The notes under the pieces are model-generated. The model was not told the DNA's origin, did no database searches, and saw only the letters and a program-made list of their open reading frames with translations. Source: Procambarus clarkii (taxonomy: Eukaryota; Arthropoda; Malacostraca; Decapoda; Cambaridae). From it: 64,000 bases of DNA. Below, in pieces: positions 16,601-55,545 of this stretch. The stretch is from contig NC_091195.1 of NCBI RefSeq assembly GCF_040958095.1, positions 26,370,313-26,434,312 of the forward strand, given 5' to 3'. The position numbers and the translations under genes are program-made. Position 1 is the first letter of the stretch. Each line of letters starts with the position of its first letter.

Positions 16601-16665
16601 GAGGTACAGGTAACCCCTGGTTGATACCTGGTTGATACCTGGTTGATGGGGTTCTGGGAGTTCGT

Positions 16666-17697
16666 CTACTCCCCAAGCCCGGCCCGAGGCCAGGCTCGAC
16701 TTGTGAGAGTTTGGTCCACCAGGCTGTTGCTTGGAGCGGCCCGCAGGCCCACATACCCACCACAGCCCGGTTGGTCCGGCACTCCTTGGAGGAATAAATC
16801 TAGTTTCCTCTTGAAAATGTCCACGGTTGTTCCGGCAATATTTCTTATGCTTGCTGGGAGGACGTTGAACAACCGCGGACCTCTGATGTTTATACAGTGT
16901 TCTCTGATTGTGCCTATGGCACCTCTGCTCTTCATTGGTTCTATTCTACATTTTCTTCCATGTCGTTCACTCCAGTACGTTATTTTACTGTGTAGATTTG
17001 GTACTTGGCCCTCCAGTATCTTCCAGGTGTATATTATTTGATATCTCTCTCGTCTTCTTTCTAGTGAATACATTTGGAGGGCTTTGAGACGATCCCAATA
17101 ATTTAGGTGCTTTATTGCGTCTATGCGTGCCGTATATGTTCTCTGTATTCCCTCTATTTCAGCAATCTCTCCTGCTTTGAAGGGGGAAGTGAGTACTGAG
17201 CAGTACTCAAGACGGGACAACACAAGTGCCTTGAAGAGTACAACCATTGTGATGGGATCCCTGGATTTGAAAGTTCTCGTAATCCATCCTATCATTTTTC
17301 TGGCTGTTGCAATATTTGCTTGGTTATGCTCCTTAAACGTTAGGTCGTCAGACATTATTATTCCCAAATCCTTTACATGCTGTTTTCCTACTATGGGTAC
17401 ATTTGATTGTGTTTTGTACTCTGTATTATGTTTAAGGTCCTCATTTTTACCGTACCTGAGTACCTGGAATTTATCACTGTTAAACATCATGTTATTTTCT
17501 GATGCCCAGTCGAAAACTTTATTAATATCAGCTTGAAGTTTTTCAATGTCCTCAGCCGAGGTAATTTTCATACTGATTTTTGTGTCATCTGCAAAGGATG
17601 ATACGAAGCTGTGACTTGTATTTTTGTCTATATCTGATATGAGAATAAGGAAAAGCAGTGGTGCAAGGACTGTACCCTGAGGTACAGAGCTTTTCAC
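16666..17697 (-). CDS. LINE family B ORF2, second half of RT
   Basis: A 343-aa open frame continuing ORF2 after the frameshift: KSSVPQGTVLAPLLFLILIS, the catalytic SFADDTKI box, the LVLSRLEYCS thumb region and a C-terminus with CINIRGPRLFNVLP and VPDQPGCGGYVG. It is separated from the upstream part only by the frameshift. The protein is probably not made as one piece from this copy. Confidence 0.88.
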   Translation of the reverse strand: MKSSVPQGTVLAPLLFLILISDIDKNTSHSFVSSFADDTKISMKITSAEDIEKLQADINKVFDWASENNMMFNSDKFQVLRYGKNEDLKHNTEYKTQSNVPIVGKQHVKDLGIIMSDDLTFKEHNQANIATARKMIGWITRTFKSRDPITMVVLFKALVLSRLEYCSVLTSPFKAGEIAEIEGIQRTYTARIDAIKHLNYWDRLKALQMYSLERRRERYQIIYTWKILEGQVPNLHSKITYWSERHGRKCRIEPMKSRGAIGTIREHCINIRGPRLFNVLPASIRNIAGTTVDIFKRKLDLFLQGVPDQPGCGGYVGLRAAPSNSLVDQTLTSRAWPRAGLGE

Positions 17698-17729
17698 TGC
17701 ACTTGGACTAGATTTTATATGGTTGACAG

Positions 17730-19835
17730 TTACTCGCTGAGTCCTGTTGACAGAAAACTGAGTATCCAGCGTCCTACTTTACCGGTTATTCCCATTGACT
17801 TCATTTTGTGTGCTATCACGCCATGGTCACATTTATCAAAGGCCTTTGCGAAGTCCGTGTATATCACATCAGCATTCTGTTTCTCTTCTAATGCCTCAGT
17901 GACTTTGTCGTAGTGCTCAAGTAGCTGTGAGAGGCACGATCTTCCCGCTCGAAATCCATGTTGGCCTGGGTTATGAAGGTCATTGGTCTCCATGAAATTG
18001 GTGACCTGACTCCTAATCACTCTCTCAAATACTTTTATGATGTGCGATGTTAGTGCAACTGGTCTATAATTTTTTGCCAATGCTTTGCTCCCTCCCTTGT
18101 GTAGAGGGGCTATGTCTGCTACTTTAAGTGCATCTGGTATCTCCCCCGTGTCCAAGCTCTTCCTCCACACTATACTGAGTGCCTGTGCTACCGGCACTTT
18201 GCATTTCTTTATAAATATTGAATTCCATGAGTCTGGACCTGGGGCCGAGTGCATGGGCATGTTTTCAATTTCTTTTTCAAAATTTAGTGCGCTCGTGTTT
18301 ATATCAGTTATATTTACCGGGGTTTGAATATCCCGCATAAAGAAAATGTCTGGATCTTCCACCTTCATGTTGTTTATTGGAGTGCTAAACATGTCCTCAT
18401 ACTGCTTTTTTAGGATTTCACTAATTTCTTTGTCATCCTCCGTGTATGAACCTTCACTTGTACGAATAGGTCCAATACTGGCAGTGGTTTTTGCTTTTGA
18501 TTTCGCATATGAGAAAAAATATTTTGGATTTTTCTTTATTTCCTGAATTGCTTTCTGTTCTAACTGCCTTTCTTCAGTTTCATATGAGTGTTTCAATTTC
18601 CGCTCGATTTCTTCAATCTCCCTATTTAAATTATTCCTTCTTTGACGGGAAATTCGTGTCTGCATAAGCAGTTCCGTTATTTTTTTCCTGCGTTTATAGT
18701 GTCGTCTGCGTTCTCTTTCTAAGTTAGATCTCTTTCTGGCTTTCCTCAAAGGAACATGTTTCAGACAGACTTGATACGCTTCTGAAGTAAGTTTTTCTAT
18801 TCCTTCTGTAGGACTTGTATTATTTAGAACAGTTCCCCATGGAATGTTTGTAAGTTCCCTGTTTATTATCTCCCAGTCTATCCTTTTATTATTAAAATTG
18901 AATTTACTGAATAGCCCCTCTCGCTTTATCAACGTTTTAGGTCTATTCTGAGTATTGATGGTCGTTTGCACTTCAATGAGTTTGTGATCTGAGTATGTGG
19001 TATCTGATATCGTAATGTCTCTGATAATGTCTTCATTGTTCGTAAAGACCAGATCTAGAATATTTTCATTTCTCGTTGGCTCCGATATCTGCTGATTGAG
19101 TGAAAATTTGTCACAGAATCTAAGTAGTTCTCTAATCTGTGGTTGGTTAGGTCCTGATAGATTTCCTGGTATAATATTATTGTTTGCTATTTTCCACCTG
19201 AGACTAGGCAAGTTGAAGTCACCTAGGAAAATAATATCAGGTATCGGGTTCTCCAAATTATCAAGGCTATTCTCTATTTTGCTTATCTGTTCTGTGAATT
19301 CCTCAGCCGTTGCATCTGGCGGTTTGTATATTAGTATAATCACTAAATTTATTTTCTCTATTTTTAATCCCAGTACCTCTACCACCTCATTTGTAACGTT
19401 TAGGAGCTCCGAGCATATAAGGTCTTCCCTAATATACAGACCCACTCCTCCATGTGACCTAATTTTCCTATCACACCTGTATAGGTTATATCCTGGAATC
19501 CAGATCTCACTGTCCAACAATTCCCCTGCATGGGTTTCTGTGAAAGCTCCAAATACTGCATTTGACTCCGTGAGGAGGCCATTTATGAACTGTACTTTGT
19601 TGTTTGTTCTTGTTTTCAGTCCTTGTATGTTGGCAAAGATGAATGAGGTTACTCTATTAGTGATAGTTTGAATGGGAGACTTTTTCGGCACGTCCATTAA
19701 TCGTGGACATAATGAGTTTGTTCTGACCAGTACTGATTGTTGTAGGGCAGTTTTCTGTCGTAGTTGTAGTTCCCTTTCGGTGGGTAATTGTATCTGTAAT
19801 TCTGGAATGCCAGTGGATCTGGCATCCAGTTCCAT
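17730..19835 (-). CDS. LINE family B ORF2, endonuclease and first half of RT (frameshifted)
   Basis: 701 aa in one frame. The endonuclease domain has FANIQGLKTRTNN, AFTETHAGE, FLGDFNLPSLRW and YSDHKLIEV, the Mg2+-dependent nicking enzyme that starts target-primed reverse transcription. A basic linker follows, then RT motifs GPDSWNSIFIKKC, NYRPVALTS, GFRAGRSCLSQLL and YTDFAKAFDKCDHGVIAH. One base appears missing near 17750, so this frame stops at 17730 and the RT resumes in another frame at 17697. The ATG at 19835 lies inside ORF1. Translation may instead use reinitiation or frameshifting at the 139-base overlap. Confidence 0.88.
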   Translation of the reverse strand: MELDARSTGIPELQIQLPTERELQLRQKTALQQSVLVRTNSLCPRLMDVPKKSPIQTITNRVTSFIFANIQGLKTRTNNKVQFINGLLTESNAVFGAFTETHAGELLDSEIWIPGYNLYRCDRKIRSHGGVGLYIREDLICSELLNVTNEVVEVLGLKIEKINLVIILIYKPPDATAEEFTEQISKIENSLDNLENPIPDIIFLGDFNLPSLRWKIANNNIIPGNLSGPNQPQIRELLRFCDKFSLNQQISEPTRNENILDLVFTNNEDIIRDITISDTTYSDHKLIEVQTTINTQNRPKTLIKREGLFSKFNFNNKRIDWEIINRELTNIPWGTVLNNTSPTEGIEKLTSEAYQVCLKHVPLRKARKRSNLERERRRHYKRRKKITELLMQTRISRQRRNNLNREIEEIERKLKHSYETEERQLEQKAIQEIKKNPKYFFSYAKSKAKTTASIGPIRTSEGSYTEDDKEISEILKKQYEDMFSTPINNMKVEDPDIFFMRDIQTPVNITDINTSALNFEKEIENMPMHSAPGPDSWNSIFIKKCKVPVAQALSIVWRKSLDTGEIPDALKVADIAPLHKGGSKALAKNYRPVALTSHIIKVFERVIRSQVTNFMETNDLHNPGQHGFRAGRSCLSQLLEHYDKVTEALEEKQNADVIYTDFAKAFDKCDHGVIAHKMKSMGITGKVGRWILSFLSTGLSE

Positions 19836-20647: not shown

Positions 20648-20936
20648 ATTGCCTTGTTTTGTTGTATATATCTATATATTTATAATATTATATGTATATT
20701 GTATATTTGTAACAATATATATATTTATATGTTTAATATTATAATATTATGTATATCGTATATTTGTAATATGTGTGTTATTTTGTTCAAACTTTATGGT
20801 CGATCTCGACCAGTCCAGCCAAAAGGCATTGACTTCGATGCCTTTCGGGGTCGACTGTCCATTTCGTGGAGAGGGGAATGACGTCGATAACAATGTTATA
20901 CTTAGTGCATTTTTATACTTTCTTACAATGTATTTT
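20640..20936. other. AT-rich leader and flanking sequence
   Basis: 20650-20770 is TATATA/ATATTTGTA-rich low-complexity DNA upstream of ORF1. Then GGTCGATCTCGACC (a 14-base palindrome near 20799) and a GTCGAC site. 20908-20936 is a LINE C-type 3' piece (TTTTTATACTTTCTTACAAT). No gene. Confidence 0.5.
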
Positions 20937-22410
20937 TTGGGGGAGCCCCATCGGCTCCCGGAGCTATCCAGGCTGATATGCTAATATCCGACTTTGGCAT
21001 CAGTCATGTGTATGGAGTTCTGTGGGCCTAACAGGGACCATGAGCCAGAACCTGGCCCCCCTCACAGGCACGAGGAGCAATGGCCTATAGAAACCCCTGT
21101 GTGGTTGAAAGCATTCTATGTCTGCCATTGACCGGTTAGGCACCCATAAAAGGTAAGCATCCCAAAGCAAACCCCAATTCTGTTGAAAATTGCTACAAAA
21201 TGCTGAACAAGTGGATAAACTCCCAAACAGAAATGAGCAAATGAGTATGACATTACACGTCGCTGCGCCGTCGTCTGCGCAGCTCCTCCCTCCCCGGGAG
21301 GGGGATGGGGAAGGGGAAGCCCCAGACCCTCACCCCGGCCATGCACCTCTCAGTTCTGAGGCTGGACATCAAAACACTCGTGAAAACCACCGACTAGGGG
21401 GGAGGGAGGGTTGCTGGGGGAGCCTCTGGGACTCGCCCAGAAAATGGCGTTTCATTACATTCAATGCTGGATTTCTGGGGGGAAGCCCTGTCGGCTTCCC
21501 AAAGCTACCTAACCACAGATAAAAACCATAGGAACCTACCCAGGAGGAGGTCACTGCTCACTCCTCAATGTGAAGTCGAGACAACTGGCTGCAACAGCCG
21601 ACCCAAAACGACACAGGCCCGACTAAGCCCAGGAACGTTTACCAAGTAACGCACAGCCAGCACCCTGTTCGATCTCCAAAAAAACCCGCGCCCGAATGTC
21701 AACCCAGGACATATTACCAAAAACAGCAGCAAGAGCAGCAAACTTGCTAACATTATGGGCACGGGGATAGACTGCAGGCTGGCTAGGGCGAATAACCCTG
21801 CGCACGACCTGGAAGACCCGAACCCTGGAACAGGGAAGATGGGAAACCGGATCAACCCAAAGTGCATCCCCGGTTACAGTCCGTGGCGCGCAATTAACAG
21901 CAAAGAGCCGTAACTGGACACGACACATGATGCACCCCCTGACCTGATGAACCAAGCATCAACAACCCATGGACCCCTCCGGGGAGCAGCAGTCTCATTC
22001 TTCGCCAGAAAAGGAGGAGACAGCTGCAAATGAACAAACCTACCGCCAGGACCACACGAGCAGAAACCCATGCGCTGAAGGAGAGCATGAAGCTCCGAGA
22101 CCCAACCCCAAGAGGCCAATGCCAACGAGAAGAGAGCTTTAGAGAAACAGTCCTGAACCAAAGGGGCCACTACGAACCGAGGAGAAGAGAGATAAGAGAG
22201 CACCAACTTCCAACTACACGGGGGTTTCTATAGGCCATTACTCCTCGTGCTTCTGTGAGGGGGGCCAGGTTCTGGCTTGTGGTCCCCGGTTGGCCAACAG
22301 AACTTCATACACATGATTAATGCCAAAGTCTGACATTAGCATATCAGCCTGGATAGCTCTGGGGAGCCTCCAGGACTTACCCAGAAAATGGCGTTTCATT
22401 ACATTCAATG
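20937..22410 (-). mobile_element. DIRS-like element, copy 3 (decayed)
   Basis: In reverse orientation it repeats the whole layout of copy 1: the non-coding end (20937-21480), then recombinase pieces (22206-21565) including GDALWVDPVS, QPAVYPRAHNVSKFAALAAV and FGNMSWVDI. The catalytic HxxR reads HNVS, so the Arg is lost, and a frameshift destroys the W...Tyr part. At 22205-22410 a second copy of the non-coding end follows in the opposite orientation, as expected for inverted terminal repeats. The flanks share a LINE-C derived TTTTATACTTTCTTACAATG. Confidence 0.65.
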
Positions 22411-25568: not shown

Positions 25569-26068
25569 NNNNNNNNNNNNNNNNNNNNNNNNNNNNNNNN
25601 NNNNNNNNNNNNNNNNNNNNNNNNNNNNNNNNNNNNNNNNNNNNNNNNNNNNNNNNNNNNNNNNNNNNNNNNNNNNNNNNNNNNNNNNNNNNNNNNNNNN
25701 NNNNNNNNNNNNNNNNNNNNNNNNNNNNNNNNNNNNNNNNNNNNNNNNNNNNNNNNNNNNNNNNNNNNNNNNNNNNNNNNNNNNNNNNNNNNNNNNNNNN
25801 NNNNNNNNNNNNNNNNNNNNNNNNNNNNNNNNNNNNNNNNNNNNNNNNNNNNNNNNNNNNNNNNNNNNNNNNNNNNNNNNNNNNNNNNNNNNNNNNNNNN
25901 NNNNNNNNNNNNNNNNNNNNNNNNNNNNNNNNNNNNNNNNNNNNNNNNNNNNNNNNNNNNNNNNNNNNNNNNNNNNNNNNNNNNNNNNNNNNNNNNNNNN
26001 NNNNNNNNNNNNNNNNNNNNNNNNNNNNNNNNNNNNNNNNNNNNNNNNNNNNNNNNNNNNNNNNNNNN
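25569..26068. other. Assembly gap, 500 N
   Basis: Exactly 500 unknown bases, a round number that suggests a gap of unspecified size. A piggyBac remnant lies left of it and a SINE head plus gag-derived minisatellite right of it. Confidence 0.98.
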
Positions 26069-26128
26069 GATTCGAACCCGGAACCTCAGGACAACGAATC
26101 CTGAGCGCTGCCCACTCAGCTGTCAGGC
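26069..26128 (-). repeat. tRNA-like SINE head at gap edge
   Basis: The minus strand reads AGCTGAGTGGGCAGCGCTCA, GGATTCGTTGTCC and TTCCGGGTTCGAATC, with A-box and B-box like parts. The rest is in the gap. It directly follows the stop of the gag-derived array. Confidence 0.5.
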
Positions 26129-27006
26129 CTTGATCATGGATTCTACCTCCAGCTTAAAGTCTTGGAGTGAATCAGGTGACGCCTCCGGTGGGGGTAAATG
26201 CAACACCTCAGGTACTACCTCCAGCTTAAAGTCTTGGAGTGAATCAGGTGTCGCCTCCGGTGGGGGTAAATGGAACAGCTCAGGTACTACCTCCAGCTTA
26301 AAGTCTTGGAGTGAATCAGGTGACGCCTCCGGTGGGGGTAAATGCAACACCTCAGGTACTACCTCCAGCTTAAAGTCTTGGAGTGAATCAGGTGTCGCCT
26401 CCGGTGGGGGTAAATGGAACAGTTCAGGTACTACCTCCAGCTTAAAGTCTTGGAGTGAATCAGGTGACGCCTCCGGTGGGGGTAAATGTAACAGTTCAGG
26501 TACTACCTCCAGCTTAAAGTCTTGGAGTGAATCAGGTGACGCCTCCGGTGGGGGTAAATGCAACCTCAGGTACTACCTCCAGCTTAAAGTCTTGGAGTGA
26601 ATCAGGTGACGCCTCCGGTGGGGGTAAATGGAACAGCTCAGGTACTACCTCCAGCTTAAAGTCTTGGAGTGAATCAGGTGACGCCTCCGGTGGGGGTAAA
26701 TGCAACAGTTCAGGTACTACCTCCAGCTTAAAGTCTTGGAGTGAATCAGGTGACGCCTCCGGTGGGGGTAAATGTAGCAGCTCAGGTACTACCTCCAGCT
26801 TAAAGTCTTGGAGTGAATCAGGTGACGCCTCCGGTGGGGGTAAATGTAACACCTCAGGTACTACCTCCAGCTTAAAGTCTCGGAGTGAATCAGGTGACGC
26901 CTCCGGTGGGGGTAAATGCAACACCTCAGGTACTACCTCCAGCTTAAAGTCTTGGAGTGAATCAGGTGACGCCTCCGGTGGGGTAAATGTGACACCTCAG
27001 GAACTA
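26129..27006 (-). repeat. 72-bp coding minisatellite derived from BEL/Pao gag
   Basis: About 12 copies of a 72-base unit. Read on the minus strand, each encodes 24 residues of the form LHLPPPEASPDSLQDFKLEV. The last copy ends KLEVESMIKA and a stop. The intact BEL/Pao-type Gag at 51771-53747 contains the same segment once (LHLPPPEASADSLQVFKLEV, then ESLINA). The array is therefore a tandem expansion of one piece of a related gag gene. One unit with a 2-base loss (near 26563) breaks the frame. Units alternate at few positions (GAC/GTC, CAACACC/GAACAGC), showing recent spread. Function, if any, unknown. Confidence 0.9.
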
Positions 27007-27019
27007 GGTGTCAAGTTCT

Positions 27020-27392
27020 TATGAACAAATCCACAAGGGCCGTGGCGAGGATTCGAACCTGCGTCCGGGAGCATCCCTGACACTGCCTTAATCGACTGAG
27101 CTACGACAGGGTTAAAAGGGTTGAAACCGAAGTTCTACTAAACTTACAGGATCCCGTAGCCTCTCCGAGGCACAAACCAAGATTGTACACAACCCCCCCC
27201 CCCCCCCGTTGAGGGTTGTGTAAAAGCCTGGTTTGTGCCTCGGAGAGGCTACGGGATCCAGTAAGTTCAGTAGAACTTCGGTTTCAACCCTTTTAACCCT
27301 GTCGTAGCTCAGTCGATTAAGGCAGTGTCTGGGATGATCCCGGACGAAGGTTCGAATCCTCGTCACGACCCTTGTGGATTTGTTCATTTGAT
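27020..27392. repeat. Inverted pair of tRNA-derived SINE units around a C-run
   Basis: The right arm (+, 27233-27380) has GTAGCTCAGTCGATTAAGGC (A-box like) and AAGGTTCGAATCCTCG (B box). The left arm (27024-27185) is its near-complete reverse complement. Both carry the segment ending GCCTCTCCGAGGCACAAACC. The centre is a run of 15 C in an ACAACC...GGTTGT hairpin. Transcribed whole, this ~370-base palindrome would fold on itself. Either two opposite insertions or an inverted duplication. Confidence 0.8.
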
Positions 27393-27600
27393 GCATCACG
27401 TTAGTGTGATCTCTGTGTGTGTGTCAAGTTCTTACCTCTGGATCAGCATAATTATCCTTGATGCATCACGTTAGTGTGATCTGTGTGTGTGTGTCAAGTT
27501 CTTACCTCTGGATCAGCATAATTATCCTTGATGCATCACGTTAGTGTGATCTCTGTGTGTGTGTCAAGTTCTTACCTCTGGATCAGCATAATTATCCTTG
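27391..27600. repeat. Three 70-bp tandem copies
   Basis: Unit starts at 27391, 27461 and 27531 (ATGCATCACGTTAGTGTGAT...), almost identical, each with a short GT run. It is fused to the right arm of the SINE palindrome. Confidence 0.92.
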
Positions 27601-27754
27601 CGGAGTTATACAGCGAGGTCATGGCCGTCGGCAGTTAGCCTCAGATGAGATACTACTGATTTAGCATGTAACCTACCATTACATTACGTATATTTGCTTG
27701 GTTAGATGCACACACTTTAGTGGCTTTTTCATATTTATTTAGTAGTGATGGTTA

Positions 27755-28735: not shown

Positions 28736-28986
28736 GTTATCTTGAGGTTATCTTGAGATGATTTCGGGGCTTTAGTGTCCCCGCGGCCCGGTCCTCGACC
28801 AGGCCTCCACCCCCAGGAAGCAGCCCGTGACAGCTGACTAACTCCCAGGTACCTGTTTACTGCTAGGTAACAGGGGCATTCAGGGTGAAAGAAACTTTGC
28901 CCATTTGTTTCTGCCTCGTGCGGGAATCGAACCCGCGCCACAGAATTACGAGTCCTGCGCGCTATCCACCAGGCTACGAGGCCCCA
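28736..28986 (-). mobile_element. SINE with a different tRNA-like head
   Basis: Body and tail match the SINEs at 23331 and 27755, but the minus-strand head reads GGGGCCTCGTAGCCTGGTGG then GCGGGTTCGATTCCCGCACG, a different tRNA. A duplicated TTATCTTGAG stands at the tail (28737-28756). Heads swap while bodies stay, as known for mosaic SINE families. Confidence 0.85.
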
Positions 28987-30039: not shown

Positions 30040-32945
30040 GCTGGTGGCCAGCAGACATGGCCCCCACCAGCTGTGTGGCCCGCAGACATGGTTCCCACCA
30101 GCTGTGTGGCCCGCAGACATGGCCCCCACCAGCTGTGTGGCCCGTAGACATGGCCCCCACCAGCTGTGTGGCCCGCAGACATGGCCCCCACCAGCTGTGT
30201 GGCCCGCAGACATGGTCCCCACCAGCTGTGTGGCCCGCAGACATGGCCCCCACCAGCTGTGTGGCCCGCAGACATGGCCCCACCAGCTGTGTGGGCCGCA
30301 TACATGGCTCCACCAGCTGTGTGGCCCGCAGACATGGTCCCACCAGCTGGTGGCCCGCAGACATGGCCCACCAACTGTGTGGCTCGCAGACACGGCCCCC
30401 ACCAGCTGTGTGGCCCGCAGACATGGCCTCCACCAGCTGTGTGGCCCGCAGACATGGTTCCACCAGCTGTGTGGCCCGCAGACATGGCTCCACCAGCTGT
30501 GTGGCCCGCAAACATAATCCCCACCAGCTGTGTGGCCCGCAGACATGGCCCCCACTAGCTGTGTGGCCCGCAGACATGGCCCCACTAGCTGTGTGGCCCG
30601 CAGACATGGCCCCACCAGCTGTGTGGCCGGCAGACATGGCACCCCACCAGCTGTGTGGCCCGCAGACACGGTCCCACCAGCTGTGTGGCCCGCAGACATG
30701 GTCCCACCAGCTGTGTGGCCCGCAGACAAGGCCTCCACCAGCTGTGTGGCCCGCAGGAACATGGCCTCCACCAGGTTGTGTGACCCGCAGACATGGCCCC
30801 CACCAGCTGTGTAGTCCGCAGGACATGGTCCCCACCAGCTGTGTGGGCCCCCCACCAGCTGTGTGGGCCCCCACCAGTTGTGTGGCCCGCAGACATGGCC
30901 TCCACCAGCTGTGTGGCCCGCAGAACATGGTCCCCACCAGAATGTGTGGCCCCCACCAGTTGTGTGGCCCGCAGACATGGCCTCCACCAGCTGTGTGGCC
31001 CGCAGACATGGTCCCCACCAGCTGTGTGCCCGCAGACATGGCCTCCACCAGTTGTGTGGCCCGCAGACATGGCCTCCACCAGCTGTGTGGGCCGCAGACA
31101 TGGCCCTCCACCAGCTGTGTGGCCGGCAGACATGGTCCCCACCAGCTGTGTGGCCCGCAGACACGGTCCCACCAGCTGTGTGGCCCGCAGACATGGTCCC
31201 ACCAGCTGTGTGGCCCGCAGACATGGCCTCCATCAGCTGTGTGGCCCGCAGACATGGCCTCCACCAGTTGTGTGACCGCAGACATGGCCCCCACCAGCTG
31301 TGTAGTCCGCAGACATGGTCCCCACCAGCTGTGTGGGCCCCCACCAGTTGTGTGGCCCGCAGACATGGCCTCCACCAGCTGTGTGGCCCGCAGACATGGT
31401 CCCCACCAGATGTGTGGCCCCCACCAGTTGTGTGGCCCGCAGACATGGCCTCCACCAGCTGTGTGGCCCGCAGACATGGTCCCCACCAGCTGTGTGGCCC
31501 GCAGACATGGCCTCCACCAGTTGTGTGGCCCGCAGACATGGCCTCCACCAGCTGTGTGGACGCAGACATGGCCTCCACCAGCTGTGTGGGCCGCAGACAT
31601 GGCCTCCACCAGCTGTGTGGCCCGCAGACATGGCTCACCAGCTGTGTGGCCCTCAGACATGGCCCCCACCAGCTGTGTGGCCCGCAGACATGGTCTCCAC
31701 CAGCAGTGTGGCCCGCAGACATGGCCTCCACCAGCTGTGTTTCCCGCAGACATGGTCCCCACCAGCTGTGTGGCCCGCAGACATGGTCCCTACCAGCTGT
31801 GTGGCCCGGAGACATGGTCCCACCAGCTGTGTGGCCCGCAGACATGGTCCCCACCAGCTGTGTGGCCCGCAGACATGGTCCCACCAGCTGTGTGGCCCTC
31901 AGACATGGTCCTACCAGCTGTGTGGCCCGCAGACATGGCCCCCACCAGCTGTGTGGCCCGCAGACATGGCCTCCACCAGCTGTGTGGCCCGCAGACATGG
32001 TCCCCACCAGCTGTGTGGCCCGCAGACATGGTCCCCACCAGCTGTGTGGCCCGCAGACATGGTCCCACCAGCTGTGTGGCCCGCAGACATGGCCTCCGCC
32101 AGCTGTGTGTCCCGCAGACATGGCTCACCAGCTGTGTGGCCCTCAGACATGGCCCCCACCAGCTGTGTGGCCCACAGACATGATCCCACCAGCTGTGTGG
32201 CCCGCAGACATGGCCTCCACCAGCTGTGTGACCCGCAGACATGGCCCCCACCAGCTGTGTGGGCCCGCAGACATGGTCTCCACCAGCAGGGTGGCCCGCA
32301 GACATGGCCTCCACCAGCTGTGTGGCCCGCAGACATGGCCTCCACCAGGTGTGTGGCCCGCAGACATGATCCCACCAGCTGTGTGGCCCGCATACATGGT
32401 CCCCGCCAGCTGTGTGGCCCGCAGACATGGCCCCGCCAGCTGTGTGGCCCGCAGACATGGTCCCCACCAGCTGTGTGGCCCGCAGACATGGTCCCCGCCA
32501 ACTGTGTGGCCCGCAGACATGGCCCCACCAGCTGTGTGGCCCGCAGACATGGTCCCTACCAGCTGTGTGGCCCGCAGACATGGTCCCCACCAGCTGTGTG
32601 GCCCGCAGACATGGTCCCTACCAGCTGTGTGGCCCGCAGACATGGTCCCCACCAGCTGTGTGGCCCGCAGACATGGTCCCCACCAGCTGTGTGTGGCCCG
32701 CAGACATGGTCCCTACCAGCTGTGTGGCCCGCAGACATGGTCCCCACCAGCTGTGTGGCCCGCAGACATGGTCCCGACCAGCTGTGTGGCCCGCAGACAT
32801 GGTCCCACCAGCTGTGTGGCCCGCAGACATGGTCCCCACCAGCTGTGTGGCCCGCAGACATGGTCCCCACCAGCTGTGTGGCCCGCAGACATGGTCCCCA
32901 CCAGCTGTGTGGCCCGCAGACATGGCCCCCACCAGCTGTGTGGCC
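30040..32945. repeat. 31-bp minisatellite, ~2.9 kb
   Basis: About 95 copies of a unit with CAGCTGTGTGGCCCGCAGAC then ATGG and a C-run whose length varies (3-5 C). The unit contains an E-box (CAGCTG). Stops are nearly absent, so frames of 500-700 codons stay open on both strands. They are products of the repeat, since changes in the C-run shift the frame freely. Confidence 0.95.
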
Positions 32946-34757: not shown

Positions 34758-35460
34758 TTACATGGTCAATCTTGGATACAAGTCCAATATATCATCAAGT
34801 GTTCCAGTACTCGTATAGTAACTACAGAGTTCAGCATACCTTAGCCCAGGAGGGCGAAAGTCAGACAATATGGGACATTCTACAATATAATGTTCAAGAG
34901 AGTGCATGTTTTCTCTTTCACAAAGTTGACACATTGTGTACTCGACACTTTCACAAAGTTGACACATTGTGTACTCGACACTTTCACAAAGTTGACACAT
35001 TGTGTACTCGACACTTTCACAAAGTTGACACATTGTGTACTCGACACTTTCACAAAGTTGACACATTGTGTACTCGACACTTTCACAAAGTTGACACATT
35101 GTGTACTCGACATTTGGGTTTTGAGAAAGCTGCCAGATACGTCTATATCCCAGGCGTATTCTGGCCACTATAACATCACATTGCCGGGTTCTTGTTCTAT
35201 TAGTCCCATATGTGAATGTCTCCTTACGATATCTATCATAATATTTAATGCTACAACTTTCAAGTCTTTGTGAATTTGTTAGGTCGGTGAGATCTTCATT
35301 AGATATTTGTTTAAGTATTCTCTTTGTCACTGCTAATGAAACACCCATATCAATTTCTACCACTGGTTTTCTGCAGGCTGACTTAGCAAGCATATCAACA
35401 GTGTCATGCCTTGAGATGCCAACATGTGATGGTATCCATAGGAATTTAATCTCAAATCTG
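34758..35460 (-). pseudogene. LINE family F: RNase H end and expanded zinc-binding C-terminus
   Basis: The minus strand encodes FLWIPSHVGISRHDTVDMLAK, the end of a LINE RNase H domain, then CRKPVVEIDMGVSL, a linker with TRQCDVIVARIRLGYRR and a C-terminus with CQLCE and HSLEHYIVECP. C-x2-C with H...C is the typical zinc-binding end of such proteins. The CQLCE part is repeated six times in frame. A related C-terminus on + at 60353-60519 has the ordinary single form. A SINE at 35520-35690 cuts the upstream side, so the element is incomplete. Confidence 0.75.
34917..35112 (-). repeat. 33-bp in-frame array inside LINE F
   Basis: Six near-identical 33-base units. On the minus strand each encodes 11 residues, VEYTMCQLCES. 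The unit is a multiple of three and keeps the frame. It multiplies one half (C-x2-C) of a zinc-binding motif. Confidence 0.92.
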
Positions 35461-39775: not shown

Positions 39776-41825
39776 CCTTGGTGGATGACAACATGGTCAC
39801 CCTCCCCTGGTGGATGACACTGTGGTCACCCCCCCTGGTGGATGACACTGTGGTCACCTCTCCTGGTGGATGACACAGTGGTCACCTCCCCTGGTGGATG
39901 ACACTGTGGTCACCTCTCCTGGTGGATGACACAGTGGTCACCTCCCCTGGTGGATGACACAGTGGTCACCTCCCCTGGTGGATGATACAGTGGTCACCTC
40001 TCCTGGTGGATGACACTGTGGTCACCTTCCCTGGTGGATGACACAGTGGTCACCTCTCCTGGTGGATGACACAGTGGTCACCTCCCCTGGTGGATGACAC
40101 TGTGGTCACCCCCCCTGGTGGATGACACTGTGGTCACCTCCCCTGGTGGATGACACTGTGGTCACCTCCCCTGGTGAATGACACAGTGGTCACCTCTCCT
40201 GGTGGATGACACAGTGGTCACCTCCCCTGGAGGATGATACAGTGGTCACCTCCCCTGGTGGATGACACTGTGGTCACCTCCCCTGGTGGATGACACTGTG
40301 GTCACCTCCCCTGGTGAATGACACAGTGGTCACCTCTCCTGGTGGATGACACAGTGGTCACCTCCCCTGGAGGATGATACAGTGGTCACCTCCCCTGGTG
40401 GATGACACTGTGGTCACCTCCCCTGGTGGATGACACAGTGGTCACCTCCCCTGGTGGATGACACAGTGGTCACCTCCCCTGGAGGATGACACAGTGGTCA
40501 CCTCCCCTGGTGGATGACACTGTGGTCACCTCCCCTGGTGGATGACACAGTGGTCACCTCCCCTGGTGGATGACACAGTGGTCACCTCCCCTGGTGGATG
40601 ACACAGTGGTCACCTCCCCTGGTGGATGACACAGTGGTCACCTCCCCTGGTGGATGACACAGTGGTCACCTCCCCTGGTGGATGACACAGTGGTCACCTC
40701 TCCTGGTGGATGACACAGTGGTCACCTCCCCTGGTGGATGACACTGTGGTCACCCCCCCTGGTGGATGACACTGTGGTCACCTCCCCTGGTGGATGACAC
40801 TGTGGTCACCTCCCCTGGTGAATGACACAGTGGTCACCTCTCCTGGTGGATGACACAGTGGTCACCTCCCCTGGAGGATGATACAGTGGTCACCTCCCCT
40901 GGTGGATGACACTGTGGTCACCTCCCCTGGTGGATGACACAGTGGTCACCTCCCCTGGTGGATGACACAGTGGTCACCTCCCCTGGAGGATGACACAGTG
41001 GTCACCTCCCCTGGTGGATGACACTGTGGTCACCTCCCCTGGTGGATGACACAGTGGTCACCTCCCCTGGTGGATGACACAGTGGTCACCTCCCCTGGTG
41101 GATGACACAGTGGTCACCTCCCCTGGTGGATGACACAGTGGTCACCTCCCCTGGTGGATGACACAGTGGTCACCTCCCCTGATGGATGACACAGTGGTCA
41201 CCTCCCCTGGTGGATGACACTGTGGTCACCTCCCCTGGTGGATGACACAGTGGTCACCTCCCCTGGTGGATGACACAGTGGTCACCTCCCCTGGAGGATG
41301 ATACAGTGGTCACCTCCCCTGGTGGATGACACTGGTCACCCTCCCCTGGTGGATGACACAGTGGTCACCTCCCCTGGTGGATGACACAGTGGTCACCCTC
41401 CCCTGGTGGATGACACAGTGGTCACCTCCCCTGGTGAATGACACAGTGGTCACCTCCCCTGGTGGATGACACAGTGGTCACCTCCCCTGGTGGATGACAC
41501 AGTGGTCACCTCCCCTGGTGGATGACACAGTGGTCACCTCCCCTGGTGGATGACACAGTGGTCACCTCCCCTGGTGAATGACACAGTGGTCACCTCCCCT
41601 GGTGGATGACACTGTGGTCACCCTCCCCTGGTGGATGACACAGTGGTCACCTCCCCTGGTGGATGATACTGTGGTCACCCTCCCCTGGTGGATGACACTG
41701 TGGTCACCTCCCCTGGTGGATGACACTGTGGTCACCCTCCCCTGGTGGATGACACAGTGGTCACCTCCCCTGGTGGATGACACTGTGGTCACCCTCCCCT
41801 GGTGGATGACACAGTGGTCACCTCC
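39776..41825. repeat. 28-bp minisatellite B, segment 1
   Basis: Unit contains TGGTGGATGACACAGTGGTC and CCTCCCC, with CACTG/CACAG, GATAC and GAATG variants. A block of 23 units (644 bases) is repeated: the same variant series begins near 40081 and 40725. Starts inside LINE E and is cut by an LTR at 41826. Confidence 0.96.
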
Positions 41826-49647: not shown

Positions 49648-50748
49648 TGTCGGAAAATCCGACACCATTTAATAATAATATCATACAGACAGATAAGAGC
49701 TGTGTTGTATAAACAAGTTACCCATAGAAAACGTAACTTGTAGTGGAATTACCATCTAAAGAAAACGGGATATCATCACCACATACTATTATAATTCACC
49801 ACCTATTATGGTGGGAATTATTCTTAAATACATTAGTCTTTGGACTTTACCATCATAAAACATCTTATATAAATTAACTTAATTATCAATATTAAAGTAG
49901 AGTAACTGTGACCCTTCTATCACTTTCTGAAATCTGGACAAAGTAGGCCAGGCGTCAGTGGGGAAGGAGGTCAGCCATTGTAGTGTCACCTCCGAGACGT
50001 GTGGAGCAAATTCGGCTCCTATCATTCTGGACAATGTCGGCCAGTAACGTCAATTGTATGGAGTGTTAAACAGCCATTGTTGTTATACGAGACCAGAGGC
50101 TCACACGGGAGCAAATTCGGCTCCTGTTAATTTTACTTGGACGTAGTGTTATGGATACCAAAGGTGTACCATCTGTCAACACGCTGTCAACAAATCAAGT
50201 TAAGTGTTCTTTCCGAAACCCATTATTTATCATTAGTGGCCATTAATGTCATTATATAGGGTGACCCGGTTAGATCACATGGAAGCCTCAAACTAAAGGT
50301 AATTAAGCCAGGTCTTCATGTTCCATGTACTGTTTTCTCTGATATACTTGTCATATATAGGATTCTGGCTTCACAGCTAGCACACTTTTGACAGGTCAAG
50401 ACGAGGATGCAAGATTTTGTGCACCAGTTACTGGGTGATATGGAAGCTACCTCAAAGAGGATAATTTGGTGTCTACACCCTAGTTATACCTGGTGGACTA
50501 GCCTGCTGTACTATAAGATAAGGAACCTCTTCAATGTATGTAGTTAATTCTGTAGTTTGATTGGCTGCATATATATTAATTTAATAACCCCCCCTAATGT
50601 GTAGAGGATCGATTTGTGAGATTATGAGATTATTGCAGAAATACAGTCCACTTAACATTATACAAATTGCTATCGAAGTATATAAATTAACGTAAATATA
50701 AATTCATATAAATTAAATAAATATAAATCTCACAGGTCGGTTCCCACA
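49648..50748 (+). repeat. 5' LTR of BEL/Pao-type element
   Basis: Starts TGTCGGAAAATCCGACACC (which contains the perfect inverted repeat GTCGGA...TCCGAC) and ends CAGGTCGGTTCCCACA. It is AT-rich towards the 3' end (TATAAATTAA repeats). A promoter is expected in it but I cannot place the start site. Confidence 0.93.
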
Positions 50749-51770
50749 TTATTTGGTCCTTCGAAACCGAATTATTTGGACCTTCGGAACCGGAATATTT
50801 GATCCTATGAACCCATATTTGGTCATCTTCGAACCGGATGACGGATTATTTGATCCTTTGAACCCACATTTGGTCATCTTAGTACCGGATGAACCAGTTA
50901 ACCAGTGGATTCATTAAATATCTAGTGCAGTGTTATTTAAACAAAGCCAGTCAAAGACAGCGGCGAAGCCTCGTGGGAGCTCAGGAGCTTCCCTCAGCCC
51001 AGTTCAGCTTCGTCAGCGGTTTCATGCACACCCACAGATATTTGGTGGCGTGTTATTTCGTGAAATGACAGCGCTAATATTGAAGCCAGCCTAATTAGTG
51101 ACTGTGTCTTCGCGAGATTGTTCACGGATTTCGTGGTGTTACATTTCGCGAGAGATTATCTACGAATTTTGTGGAGTTTATTTCGCGAGGTCACTAATAA
51201 TATTTAATACTTCTAGATAATATTAGAAGTTTCATAGAGGCTAATTAAGAGGCTATTATCAATAATTGTGTATATTATTTCTCCAAAATAGAGAATCATT
51301 TAATATAAATTGCACTAGTGATCACAGTATAATATTTACTAATTGCCAACCCACAACAGGGTAGGATATTAACCATTGACTAGTTGAACTATTATCGTTC
51401 ATCCTAGTCCCATTATTACCATAGTCAGTTGTACTATATTCAACAACTTAGCACCATTAATGAATGGTGCAGACCCTATTTTGGGTGTAATTATTATCAA
51501 CTCGAATTGAGTTGTATATATAATAATTTACTTATGGTCATTACACCTTTGAGTGATTAATTAGTGTCTCTACCATCCTGGGGTGATATAGAAGAGCTAA
51601 CCTAAAGGTACTTCCAGTGACACTGGTTTATCACTCAAATCATTAGTGTGTATGATTGTATATATATATAATGTGTATTAATTTTAAGTGCTAACCTCTA
51701 GTAGAGGTAGGATTATTGCCTAGTGAGTTCAGAATTTACCCTAGGCTACCATTAGAGCTTGTTCAGTATT
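50749..51770 (+). promoter_or_regulatory. Primer-site region and leader with repeated PBS-like motifs
   Basis: Directly after the LTR, ATTTGGTCCTTCGAAACCG and five or so variants (ATTTGGACCTTCGGAACCGG, ATTTGGTCATCTTCGAACCGG-like) follow to about 50900. TGG right after the LTR is expected for a tRNA primer-binding site; which copy is used is unknown. The remainder to the start codon shows no gene. Confidence 0.55.
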
Positions 51771-53747
51771 ATGAGCAGCCCAAGTACAAGCCCCACAAGG
51801 CTTCACCAACTAGCCAGTATGGATAATGCAGGGAGAATGAAAAGAACCCTTGCAGGTCTTAAAGGCCACTTAACAAGACAGATCAAGAAATGTGAAGATT
51901 TGTCACAACAATCAACAGTTGATTATGCTGACCTGGAAAGCTATTATCAAGCAGCTGCAGGTAAATTTGAGCAAATCAAATGTCAAATAGCAACATATGT
52001 GGCTGAACTTGCCAACACCAATTTATCAGAAACAGAAATAGACGACATTATGGTTGATCTTGCGAATTATGAAGATCACACTCAGGCCACGTTACAGCCT
52101 TATGTCAAATTAATTGCCCAGAACAAGGCAACAGCAACAACAACAACAGTTGCATCTAATACGAGTCAAGCAGAAGCTCGACTCCCTCCAATTAATTTAC
52201 CCACTTTCTCAGGAAAAGATGAGGAAGATTGGGATGAATTTTGGAACAAATTCGTTGACCTTGTAGACTCAAAACAATCTTTACCAAAGAGTAGTAAATT
52301 CTCTTATTTGCAAGGCCAATTATCAGGTGAGGCTAAAACAGTAGTATCCCATCTGAGATTAACTAATGACGGCTATGATCTGGCAGTAAAACTCCTCAAG
52401 GATAATTATGCTGATCCAGAAGTAAGAACATCACATTTAGTTCATGAGCTGTTGCATTTACCCCCACCGGAGGCTTCAGCTGATTCACTCCAAGTCTTCA
52501 AGCTGGAGGTAGAATCATTGATCAATGCCCTCAGCCTGACAGCAGATACAAACGGGGCTGAGTGGGTCTTGAAAATAATTGTCCAGGAGAAAATACCTAG
52601 GGACATATTGAGACAAATGAGTGCTCATTACAATAAAAGCATCTTATCCATGAATGAAATATCTGAAGGTTTAAAGTCAGTAGTTCATCAATTACGAACA
52701 CATGACAAATTAAAACCACCAAGTAAACCCTCAGAAACCAATAATAGTAAACCACAGAGTACCAAAGGTACTCCAAATCAATCTAGACAATATAATTCAA
52801 CACCAAAGTGGAACAGTGGCAGTGTGGGCGTATATGCAGTGGGACCCTCCAAGCCTATAGTTACTGTGTCACCCAAGAACGTCACACCAAAGGGTACTGG
52901 AAACTATGGAACATGTTTGTTCTGCAATGAGAAACATTCAATGTACCACTGCCCTAATTTTCCTGATAGTGACGCCCGTGTTGAGCGACTCAAAGATTTG
53001 CAACATTGCACGAGGTGCCTCAGGAAACATAACATCAAGGATTGTGATACCCAATTACACACCTGTAATAGGTGTAACAAAGGTCAACACCATGCAGCAT
53101 TGTGCAGAGACACCAAAACAACGTCTCCAAACCCCAAGGTGGAAGATAGCATTCCCACCACAGTACAGTACTGCAAGGTGCAACAAACAAAGAGTGTCCA
53201 ATCAGCAAAGTCTAAAGGTAATACGACTTTGCCTACTGCCCAAATTACCATCCTGAATAAGAGGGCCAAGGTCCATACCCGTGGGTTGTTTGACCAAGGA
53301 TCCCAGAGAACATATATCACTAAAAAGCTGGCAGATGAATTACAATTAAGGCCTGTAGCCCAGATGTCATTCAACATCTCAGGGTTTGTAACAGATGCAG
53401 GACCTCAAGTCTACCAGGTGGTACAACCATCAGTACGTTTAGGCAGGTACGTCTGTCGAGTACAAGCCATTGTGGTGGACAAAATACCAGTAGACCTACA
53501 AGTTCAAGGTCTGAGAGCAACAGCCAAATTCCTGAGAAATAGAGGAATAAAATTGGCAGATAATATTAAGTCTGATCACCTCACCGACTTCGGTCTCCTT
53601 GTAGGGACAGACTATTGTCATCGATTCATCGGTAGCCCTACTAAATATCAGGGTATAACCATGTTAAACTCTGCAGGAGGTAAATTACTCTCAGGCCCAG
53701 TATCAAGCCTGAGGAGACCTATGCCTGCAGATAAACAATACCAGTAG
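51771..53747 (+). CDS. BEL/Pao-type Gag-protease polyprotein
   Basis: About 658 residues from ATG 51771 (an upstream TTG start is less likely), intact. Order: helical N-terminus, DUF1759-like Gag from about residue 138 (LPPINLPTFSGKDEEDWDEF...), the segment LHLPPPEASADSLQVFKLEV that is expanded at 26.1-27.0 kb, then zinc knuckles from about residue 382 (CLFCNEKHSMYHC, CTRCLRKHNIKDC, CNRCNKGQHHAALC), and a DUF1758-like protease with catalytic FDQGSQ near residue 508. It stops at 53747 before any RT. Full elements continue into RT, RNase H and integrase, so this is a truncated polyprotein. Gag forms the particle and the protease matures it. Confidence 0.92.
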   Translation: MSSPSTSPTRLHQLASMDNAGRMKRTLAGLKGHLTRQIKKCEDLSQQSTVDYADLESYYQAAAGKFEQIKCQIATYVAELANTNLSETEIDDIMVDLANYEDHTQATLQPYVKLIAQNKATATTTTVASNTSQAEARLPPINLPTFSGKDEEDWDEFWNKFVDLVDSKQSLPKSSKFSYLQGQLSGEAKTVVSHLRLTNDGYDLAVKLLKDNYADPEVRTSHLVHELLHLPPPEASADSLQVFKLEVESLINALSLTADTNGAEWVLKIIVQEKIPRDILRQMSAHYNKSILSMNEISEGLKSVVHQLRTHDKLKPPSKPSETNNSKPQSTKGTPNQSRQYNSTPKWNSGSVGVYAVGPSKPIVTVSPKNVTPKGTGNYGTCLFCNEKHSMYHCPNFPDSDARVERLKDLQHCTRCLRKHNIKDCDTQLHTCNRCNKGQHHAALCRDTKTTSPNPKVEDSIPTTVQYCKVQQTKSVQSAKSKGNTTLPTAQITILNKRAKVHTRGLFDQGSQRTYITKKLADELQLRPVAQMSFNISGFVTDAGPQVYQVVQPSVRLGRYVCRVQAIVVDKIPVDLQVQGLRATAKFLRNRGIKLADNIKSDHLTDFGLLVGTDYCHRFIGSPTKYQGITMLNSAGGKLLSGPVSSLRRPMPADKQYQ

Positions 53748-54444
53748 AGATCTAAATTTGTCAGCTGATTATATTTCTCCAGTAGCATTATACTAAGGAG
53801 ATTACAGCTGACTATACCAACAGAGGTTGATGTTAGTATCATCATTTAAAGCTGAAGATGAGTTCATGAGGCCTCAGTGGCAAATCAGTGAACAGTAGCC
53901 TAAAACAGCTACAAGTCACTGCGACCAATGTCACTGAACCCACTGCAGTCTCAGAACCATAATTTACTTTAATGATGAGCTATTCAATCTTCTGAATCAA
54001 TTAACTAAATTAAACCCCAATAAATCTGATGACTGATTTGATACATTTATTATTTAATCAAGATGTATTCCATGGGCCTCAGTGTTTATATATCAGTGAC
54101 CAGTTACCTGAAGAAACTTCAAGTTATATCTAATGTCACTGATCTCACTGCAGTCCCTGAATCATACTTGACTGTAGTACTTGATCACATTCAGTCTTCT
54201 GGGTTAAATAATATGTAATAAGGCTTGAATATTAGCCTTTCAAGAGTTGACAGGGAAATGAAATCGCATTAGACTTCTAACCCCTGCAACTCTAGTACGG
54301 GACATCCGTCCTGTACGAACAGACACACAAATGTGTGATTACTAACTACTAACATCAAATTAATGTAATAATTCGATGGAGGAGTATCGGTGTTCGTCTG
54401 TTCTAACTAGGACTTCGACCCGTGAGCAGCCCCCTGGGGAATTA
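53748..54444 (+). other. Non-coding interior of BEL/Pao-type element
   Basis: Stops in all + frames. Two related blocks (near 53860-53960 and 54075-54190) both contain GGCCTCAGTG, ATCAGTGA and CACTGCAGTC, showing an internal ~220-base duplication. CCCCTGGGGAATTA precedes the 3' LTR where a polypurine tract is expected. The pol genes appear to have been lost here. Confidence 0.7.
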
Positions 54445-55545
54445 TGTCGGAAAATCCGACACCATTTAATAATAATATCATACAGACAGATAAGAGCTGT
54501 GTTGTATAAACAAGTTACCCATAGAAAACGTAACTTGTAGTGGAATTACCATCTAAAGAAAACGGGATATCATCACCACATACTATTATAATTCACCACC
54601 TATTATGGTGGGAATTATTCTTAAATACATTAGTCTTTGGACTTTACCATCATAAAACATCTTATATAAATTAACTTAATTATCAATATTAAAGTAGAGT
54701 AACTGTGACCCTTCTATCACTTTCTGAAATCTGGACAAAGTAGGCCAGGCGTCAGTGGGGAAGGAGGTCAGCCATTGTAGTGTCACCTCCGAGACGTGTG
54801 GAGCAAATTCGGCTCCTATCATTCTGGACAATGTCGGCCAGTAACGTCAATTGTATGGAGTGTTAAACAGCCATTGTTGTTATACGAGACCAGAGGCTCA
54901 CACGGGAGCAAATTCGGCTCCTGTTAATTTTACTTGGACGTAGTGTTATGGATACCAAAGGTGTACCATCTGTCAACACGCTGTCAACAAATCAAGTTAA
55001 GTGTTCTTTCCGAAACCCATTATTTATCATTAGTGGCCATTAATGTCATTATATAGGGTGACCCGGTTAGATCACATGGAAGCCTCAAACTAAAGGTAAT
55101 TAAGCCAGGTCTTCATGTTCCATGTACTGTTTTCTCTGATATACTTGTCATATATAGGATTCTGGCTTCACAGCTAGCACACTTTTGACAGGTCAAGACG
55201 AGGATGCAAGATTTTGTGCACCAGTTACTGGGTGATATGGAAGCTACCTCAAAGAGGATAATTTGGTGTCTACACCCTAGTTATACCTGGTGGACTAGCC
55301 TGCTGTACTATAAGATAAGGAACCTCTTCAATGTATGTAGTTAATTCTGTAGTTTGATTGGCTGCATATATATTAATTTAATAACCCCCCCTAATGTGTA
55401 GAGGATCGATTTGTGAGATTATGATATTATTGCAGAAATACAGTCCACTTAACATTATACAAATTGCTATCGAAGTATATAAATTAACGTAAATATAAAT
55501 TCATATAAATTAAATAAATATAAATCTCACAGGTCGGTTCCCACA
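54445..55545 (+). repeat. 3' LTR of BEL/Pao-type element
   Basis: Same 1101 bases as the 5' LTR with one difference noticed (55425). Followed by GTGGT, the duplicated target. Confidence 0.93.

Follow-up and report, generated by a model that had tools for sequence, protein, structure and literature searches.

Minisatellites derived from transposable elements (TEs) in the human genome are reportedly the subject of a study by Ahmed and Liang in 2012. In the part of PMC3389668 on which we draw, human TE-derived repeats form arrays inside single TE insertions, the number of units rising with the age of the TE; edges marked by short direct repeats, as in the model of Haber and Louis, are given for 300 of 7,276 human cases, slipped-strand mispairing is credited to Taylor and Breden, and most of the repeats match neither model. 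TEs, gag and pol stretches included, give rise to tandem repeats according to the relevant sections of two reviews (PMC12628747, PMC9659126), and the portion consulted of a 2026 paper on crayfish satellitomes describes these as dominated by units shorter than 100 bp (PMC13130569). TE-derived minisatellites, those from gag included, are already known; four of them within one gag copy, as we describe here, are an unusually clean case. They lie in the crayfish Procambarus clarkii (genome of 4.03 Gb), where the window, that is the whole stretch of 64,000 nucleotides analysed, is G000:C46:26370313-26434312; coordinates without a prefix refer to it.

The 72-bp array and its gag surroundings

Tandem Repeats Finder reported 12.0 copies of a 72-bp unit (95% matches, score 1553), for which the minus strand is the reading strand (VPELLHLPPPEASPDSLQDFKLEV; Table 1). 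All 12 units match nucleotides 668-742 of a BEL/Pao-type gag, 75 nt long in its single-copy form, at 85.6-90.7% (E 1e-22 to 9e-31). The unit consists of gag sequence throughout and gag continues at both edges of the array, so that its origin from gag is established. The array is a minisatellite or VNTR, with head-to-tail units in the range of about 10-100 bp, and it varies in copy number, with 12 versus 8 in the two versions of the locus described below, be they alleles or paralogues.

A sequence-only reading of this DNA had proposed a coding minisatellite made of a 24-residue piece of BEL/Pao Gag. The array and its match to gag are real, but the strand, the single frame, the origin of the stop and the parent element had to be corrected. 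About 12 in-frame copies had been claimed; the 12 copies are there, but two of them are shortened, one by 2 bp and the 5'-most by 1 bp, which puts frameshifts in 2 of 12; the one listed minus-strand frame of at least 150 aa (154 aa, 26532-26996) spans about half of the array. The copies had also been said to end in the normal downstream residues and a stop, and gag does go on for 17 nt to 26126, but the TGA that forms the next codon past it (26123-26125) is part of a SINE head and not of gag. As for coding, a search with 7988 candidates scored no protein related to the array frame, and the Pfam matches of this frame proved to be noise, with no stretch passing alone. Among the 20 units in the arrays of both versions, 18 are full length, and these carry few codon variants, 3 synonymous and 5 non-synonymous (17.7 versus 54.3 sites). 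Nothing points to a coding repeat that works, and we reject a functional one because the frame is broken, stops and frameshifts occur in the nearby gag remains and no protein relative was scored. In the window units, 4 of 6 variable sites fall within 7 bp (unit positions 10-16), a weak clustering (about 0.018 by simulation).

On its 3' side the array gives way to an insertion with a tRNA-like head, which we take as a sign of SINE identity; its body recurs many times across the genome (5936 first-look candidates). On the 5' side lies a palindromic insertion, also SINE-like, and a 13-bp target-site duplication in gag flanks it. The SINE label is based on sequence appearance and, for the tRNA-like insertion, also on its genomic repetition; Rfam gave no tRNA match in either of the two (the one tRNA match is at 28912-28982), and its miRNA matches on the palindromic insertion, far under the gathering scores, were discarded. 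Past the palindromic insertion follows a 70-bp array, in part gag, which the sequence-only reading had not mentioned. Whatever the locus has left of 26069 is in an N gap or lost, and of the four arrays only those of 72 and 70 bp are inside the window, the 45- and 105-bp arrays lying outside; the complete SINE insertion, with the gag past it, is visible in the second version.

Table 1. Positions of the arrays, gag remains, insertions and element parts; "reg" coordinates are counted from C46:28650001
Feature	Position	Strand	Remarks
tRNA-like SINE head, inserted in gag copy	26069-26125	minus	runs into N gap 25569-26068
gag remnant 3' of 72-bp array	26126-26142	minus	gag nt 743-759 (17 nt)
72-bp minisatellite, 12 copies	26143-27006	minus	each unit gag nt 668-742 (24 residues)
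gag remnant 5' of 72-bp array	27007-27021	minus	gag nt 653-667 (15 nt); holds target-site duplication of palindromic insertion
Palindromic SINE-like insertion, 367 bp	27021-27387	.	91% self reverse complement, central C-run
70-bp array, 3 copies	27388-27600	minus	unit 40 bp gag (nt 626-665) + 30 bp insertion end
Further gag remnant	27601-27665	minus	match to gag nt 562-665 spans 27562-27665
33-bp array, 6 copies	34915-35112	minus	11 aa, around CxxC motif; inside RNase H frame
5' LTR	49648-50748	plus	1 mismatch in 1101 versus 3' LTR
Open gag-protease frame, young BEL/Pao-type element	51771-53747	plus	DUF1759, DUF1758
Single-copy homologue of 72-bp unit	52438-52512	plus	in young BEL/Pao-type gag
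3' LTR	54445-55545	plus	pairs with 5' LTR
70-bp array, 4.0 copies	second version	minus	gag nt 626-665 + 30 bp insertion
72-bp array, 8.0 copies	second version	minus	gag nt 668-742
45-bp array, 24.0 copies	second version	minus	gag nt 1084-1128
105-bp array, 34.1 copies	second version	minus	gag nt 1635-1739
120-bp array, 6 copies	reg 20729-21447 (C46:28670729-28671447)		unit single-copy at window 16637-16755, 97%

The gag segment had been said to occur once, at 52.4 kb, and it is single-copy there. Among proteins, the best relatives of the window's gag are from Procambarus clarkii. The young element that holds it has DUF1759 (E 2.8e-25) and DUF1758 (E 2.5e-7) in Pfam, domains which we take as markers of BEL/Pao, together with paired LTRs and a 5-bp target-site duplication, GTGGT, on both sides of 49648-55545. 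Target-site duplications of BEL/Pao elements measure 4-6 bp. Its description as intact fits the LTRs and the open gag-protease frame but not pol: no frame of at least 150 aa lies between 53747 and 54445. It is a non-autonomous BEL/Pao-type member that carries gag-protease only. The second version of the locus lacks the element, and the 28-bp satellite that hosts it in the window is one unbroken array there. The element had also been implied as the source of the 72-bp array, a role that we rule out: it is a separate young copy, and the parent is the older, dead gag copy that surrounds the array.

The second version of the locus and the dead gag copy

A genome search located a second 72-bp array, 97% identical, 2.28 Mb off on the same contig (C46:28680503-28681080), and we analysed the 60 kb around it. 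The window from 26069 rightwards (26069-64000) corresponds to C46:28680429-28710000, a stretch of 30-38 kb, with 95 substitutions in 8480 aligned bases taken from seven blocks (1.1%). The alignment indicates that the two places are versions of one locus, and because homology starts exactly at the edge of the 500-N gap (26069), they may be two haplotypes of that locus that were both placed on the contig, alleles rather than paralogues. The label "satellite" does not survive this result, since as far as searched the 72-bp array occupies this single locus and shows neither the many loci nor the long arrays of a satellite DNA family.

The second version has no N gap at its left, and one minus-strand gag copy can be traced in it colinearly over gag nt 562-1971, interrupted by the tRNA-like SINE, the 367-bp palindromic insertion and the four tandem arrays. 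The non-repeated pieces of this copy are 79-90% like the young window gag (about 18% diverged in the longest piece) and contain 7 gaps, 6 of them frame-shifting, and 2 stops. Its 586-bp middle piece is 82-83% like the nearest relatives among the 40 of 1679 candidates that were scored.

Copy number is unlike in 12 of the 13 arrays that can be compared between the two versions (units of at least 8 bp with at least 2.5 copies in both; minimum scores of 50 for the window and 60 for the second region; a 30-bp array that runs off the window was omitted). Given as window/second version, the copies are 12/8 for 72 bp, 3/4 for 70 bp, 2.9/9.5 for 58 bp, 6/11 for 33 bp, 14.7/9.7 for 23 bp, 33.9/21.9 for 16 bp, 8.6/4.6 for 44 bp, about 94/105 for 31 bp, 130/253 for 8 bp, 351+45/155 for 28 bp, 4.4/3.4 for 20 bp and 4.3/4.0 for 43 bp (0.3 unit apart), the 18-bp array being unchanged at 3.4/3.4.

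Two further arrays nearby are comparable. The 33-bp array lies in an RNase H frame that probably belongs to a LINE; the repeat has one copy in all three of its protein relatives (Pfam PF00075), and in the second version its 11 copies (reg 41106-41468) are in a frame with stops. The 120-bp array of the second region came from a list of arrays with units of at least 18 bp and at least 2.5 copies. Its single-copy counterpart in the window spans the end of the minus-strand frame 16666-17778, which looks like a putative LINE reverse transcriptase.

Distribution of the arrays among gag copies and in the genome

The sequence-only reading had suggested a search for a source with one copy, and single copies are what the genome holds: of the 40 matches to the 72-bp segment that were scored (78 candidates), two are tandem, one at each version of the locus, and the other 38 are single matches of up to 78 bp that are 88-93% identical. 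Likewise, the 105-bp array is present only at the second version, with 39 other matches single (40 of 209 candidates scored), and the 45-bp array only at the second version, with 35 other matches single (36 of 36 candidates scored). Some of the 45-bp matches are 98% identical to the array unit, hinting at closer relatives. These did not materialize in the 6 of the 35 others inspected, where gag pieces of at least 100 bp were never more than 92% like the dead copy. An array carried along by a mobile subfamily was also rejected, as no examined relative has the array.

As controls we used 41 other distinct gag loci, made up of 35 (36 rows, with L004 and L027 being the same locus) and 6 more. None of the 41 has an array inside gag with a unit of at least 10 bp and at least 2.5 copies. 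This count leaves out a run of 3-bp units in L041 and the repeats of about 24 bp that L047 and L077 carry in two copies. It also leaves out arrays of L077, L080 and L081 that lie beyond the gag match; that of L080 has a 32-bp unit, lies 56 bp from the gag match and is without gag similarity. The two-copy duplications in L047 (1360-1409) and L077 (1402-1449), both at gag nt ~1004-1025, may show how an array begins. That one gag copy has four arrays and the 41 others have none is not the outcome of a uniform process, and it counts against the reading given below. The comparison is confounded with age in that the control loci are mostly young (94-99% to the window gag); six older ones (L003, L020, L021, L077, L079 and L080, 76-91%) have no array in gag either.

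One gag locus, L016, was considered as a sister copy with the same SINE, but it has a separate insertion of a related SINE, and its gag copy is 93-94% identical. The two related SINEs were inserted independently near gag nt ~757 (L016 ~1700-1960; reg 30240-30490), which hints at a site preference.

Tandem arrays are common in this genome. In a sample of 20 stretches of 3 kb at fixed round coordinates (period 10-200, score of at least 100), from which two that were all N were dropped and in which L053 supplied only 521 bases, 8 of 18 stretches contained arrays, which made up 21% of 51,488 bases. The share of arrays is 32% in the window and 49% in the second region. The region is array-rich but not out of place in this genome, the sample being too small for enrichment to be assessed.

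Origin of the arrays and comparison with known systems

We consider it very probable that the arrays are the result of ordinary minisatellite birth in a dead BEL/Pao-type gag copy, all four arising from that one copy. According to this reading, an old copy died in place and would have received at least two SINE-like insertions; short stretches of its gag would then have been duplicated in tandem, in situ, between direct repeats of a few base pairs (3 bp at the 72-bp unit), and the duplicates would have grown and shrunk by unequal exchange or replication slippage to become minisatellites. Compared with the young gag, the unit edges show microhomology of TCAAG for the 105-bp unit, TAG for 72 bp and CAA for 70 bp. 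Such stretches of 3-5 bp at three of the four units are in keeping with a duplication across very short direct repeats and a later expansion, as far as can be read from the edges. The 45-bp unit has no microhomology, and this counts against the reading, as does the fact that in most of the searches a part of the candidates was scored. The actual events (slippage, break repair or unequal crossing-over) and their coming after the insertions are inferred, apart from the order for the 70-bp unit, which arose after the palindromic insertion because it contains the end of it.

The units that lie wholly in gag, of 72, 45 and 105 bp, are all multiples of three, which has a chance of 1 in 27 and speaks against an origin after the death of the element. 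We weighed the alternative that the first duplications arose in a still-translated element, where in-frame units were tolerated or useful in Gag, the locus being the last relic of a subfamily and the expansion having come later. We judge this unlikely, though it is the strongest of the rivals. With the 33-bp unit of the RNase H frame added, four units are multiples of three (chance 1/81), the two other gag copies with two-copy duplications of about 24 bp could be counted in its favor, and so could the distance of the dead copy from its nearest relatives over the 586-bp stretch. Against these points, none of the four arrays occurs in any relative examined, the 70-bp unit has a length not divisible by three and is younger than an insertion, and four units from only two elements are too few to build on. 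In its general form, to which we likewise assign a low probability, arrays in TE frames would be seeded while the frame is translated, with selection filtering duplications to multiples of three, and would explode only after death; this rests on four units wholly within a TE frame being multiples of three and the junction-spanning 70-bp unit not being one. If it were true, dead gag copies would preserve, like fossils, the in-frame duplications that occurred in living elements.

The other explanations fare worse. Mis-assembly could have produced the array or the second version, given that homology between the two begins precisely where the N gap ends and that the second version, on the same contig and with so few substitutions, may be a haplotype placed twice. 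However, the array is in both versions with unlike copy number and with unit variants in common, and gag-edged units in both would not be expected from such an error; the doubt touches paralogue versus allele and not the array itself, and we regard an artefact as very unlikely. Still less probable is a selected coding or regulatory product of the repeats at this locus: the many full-length units of both arrays would suit it, but 2 of the 12 window units are frameshifted, insertions lie on both sides, the stop is insertion-derived, no protein relative was scored and the codon variants are too few to show selection. Least credible of all is the reverse direction, in which gag acquired a piece of an existing satellite. 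We found no point in support of it, the segment lies inside DUF1759 (residues 146-288 of the searched frame) and occurs once in each of the 38 other scored matches, and four different stretches of gag are tandem here.

The birth of a minisatellite is usually hidden, with the single-copy ancestor lost. For the minisatellites born in the dead gag copy, many single-copy gag relatives of the ancestor are still present, there are four births in one 2-kb gene with unit edges that can be read to the base, and array length differs between two versions of the locus that are about 1% apart in unique sequence. Because of these single-copy relatives, base-resolved edges, four births and two locus versions, the seeding step and its microhomology are directly measurable.

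In our literature search, where subscription literature was thinly covered and sources were represented in part, we found neither the present BEL case nor any account of multiple arrays that stem from a single gag copy. Units shorter than 100 bp are a feature that the 72-bp array has in common with crayfish satellitomes; the word gag is absent from the text of PMC13130569 as consulted, and we met no statement on TE origin in it. The Ogre LTR-retrotransposons of Lathyrus are, in the portion of PMC7004042 used, likewise a case of LTR-retrotransposon sequence turned into tandem arrays, but their repeats are in the 3' UTR downstream of gag-pol, are family-wide and in some cases form long satellites, whereas those of the crayfish are in gag and at one locus. 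The gag-related tandem repeats of rye and Aegilops, as presented in the part of PMC9659126 drawn upon, have the gag frame as their source, as in the crayfish, but come from plant LTR-elements and differ in the kinds and scales of their arrays. With the human TE-derived minisatellites, as far as the material used on them extends, the crayfish locus shares arrays within single TE insertions and, in a subset, direct repeats at the edges; the human set is mostly Alu and LTR12 with many two-unit arrays, whereas the crayfish locus has four arrays of 4-34 units from the gag frame of one copy.
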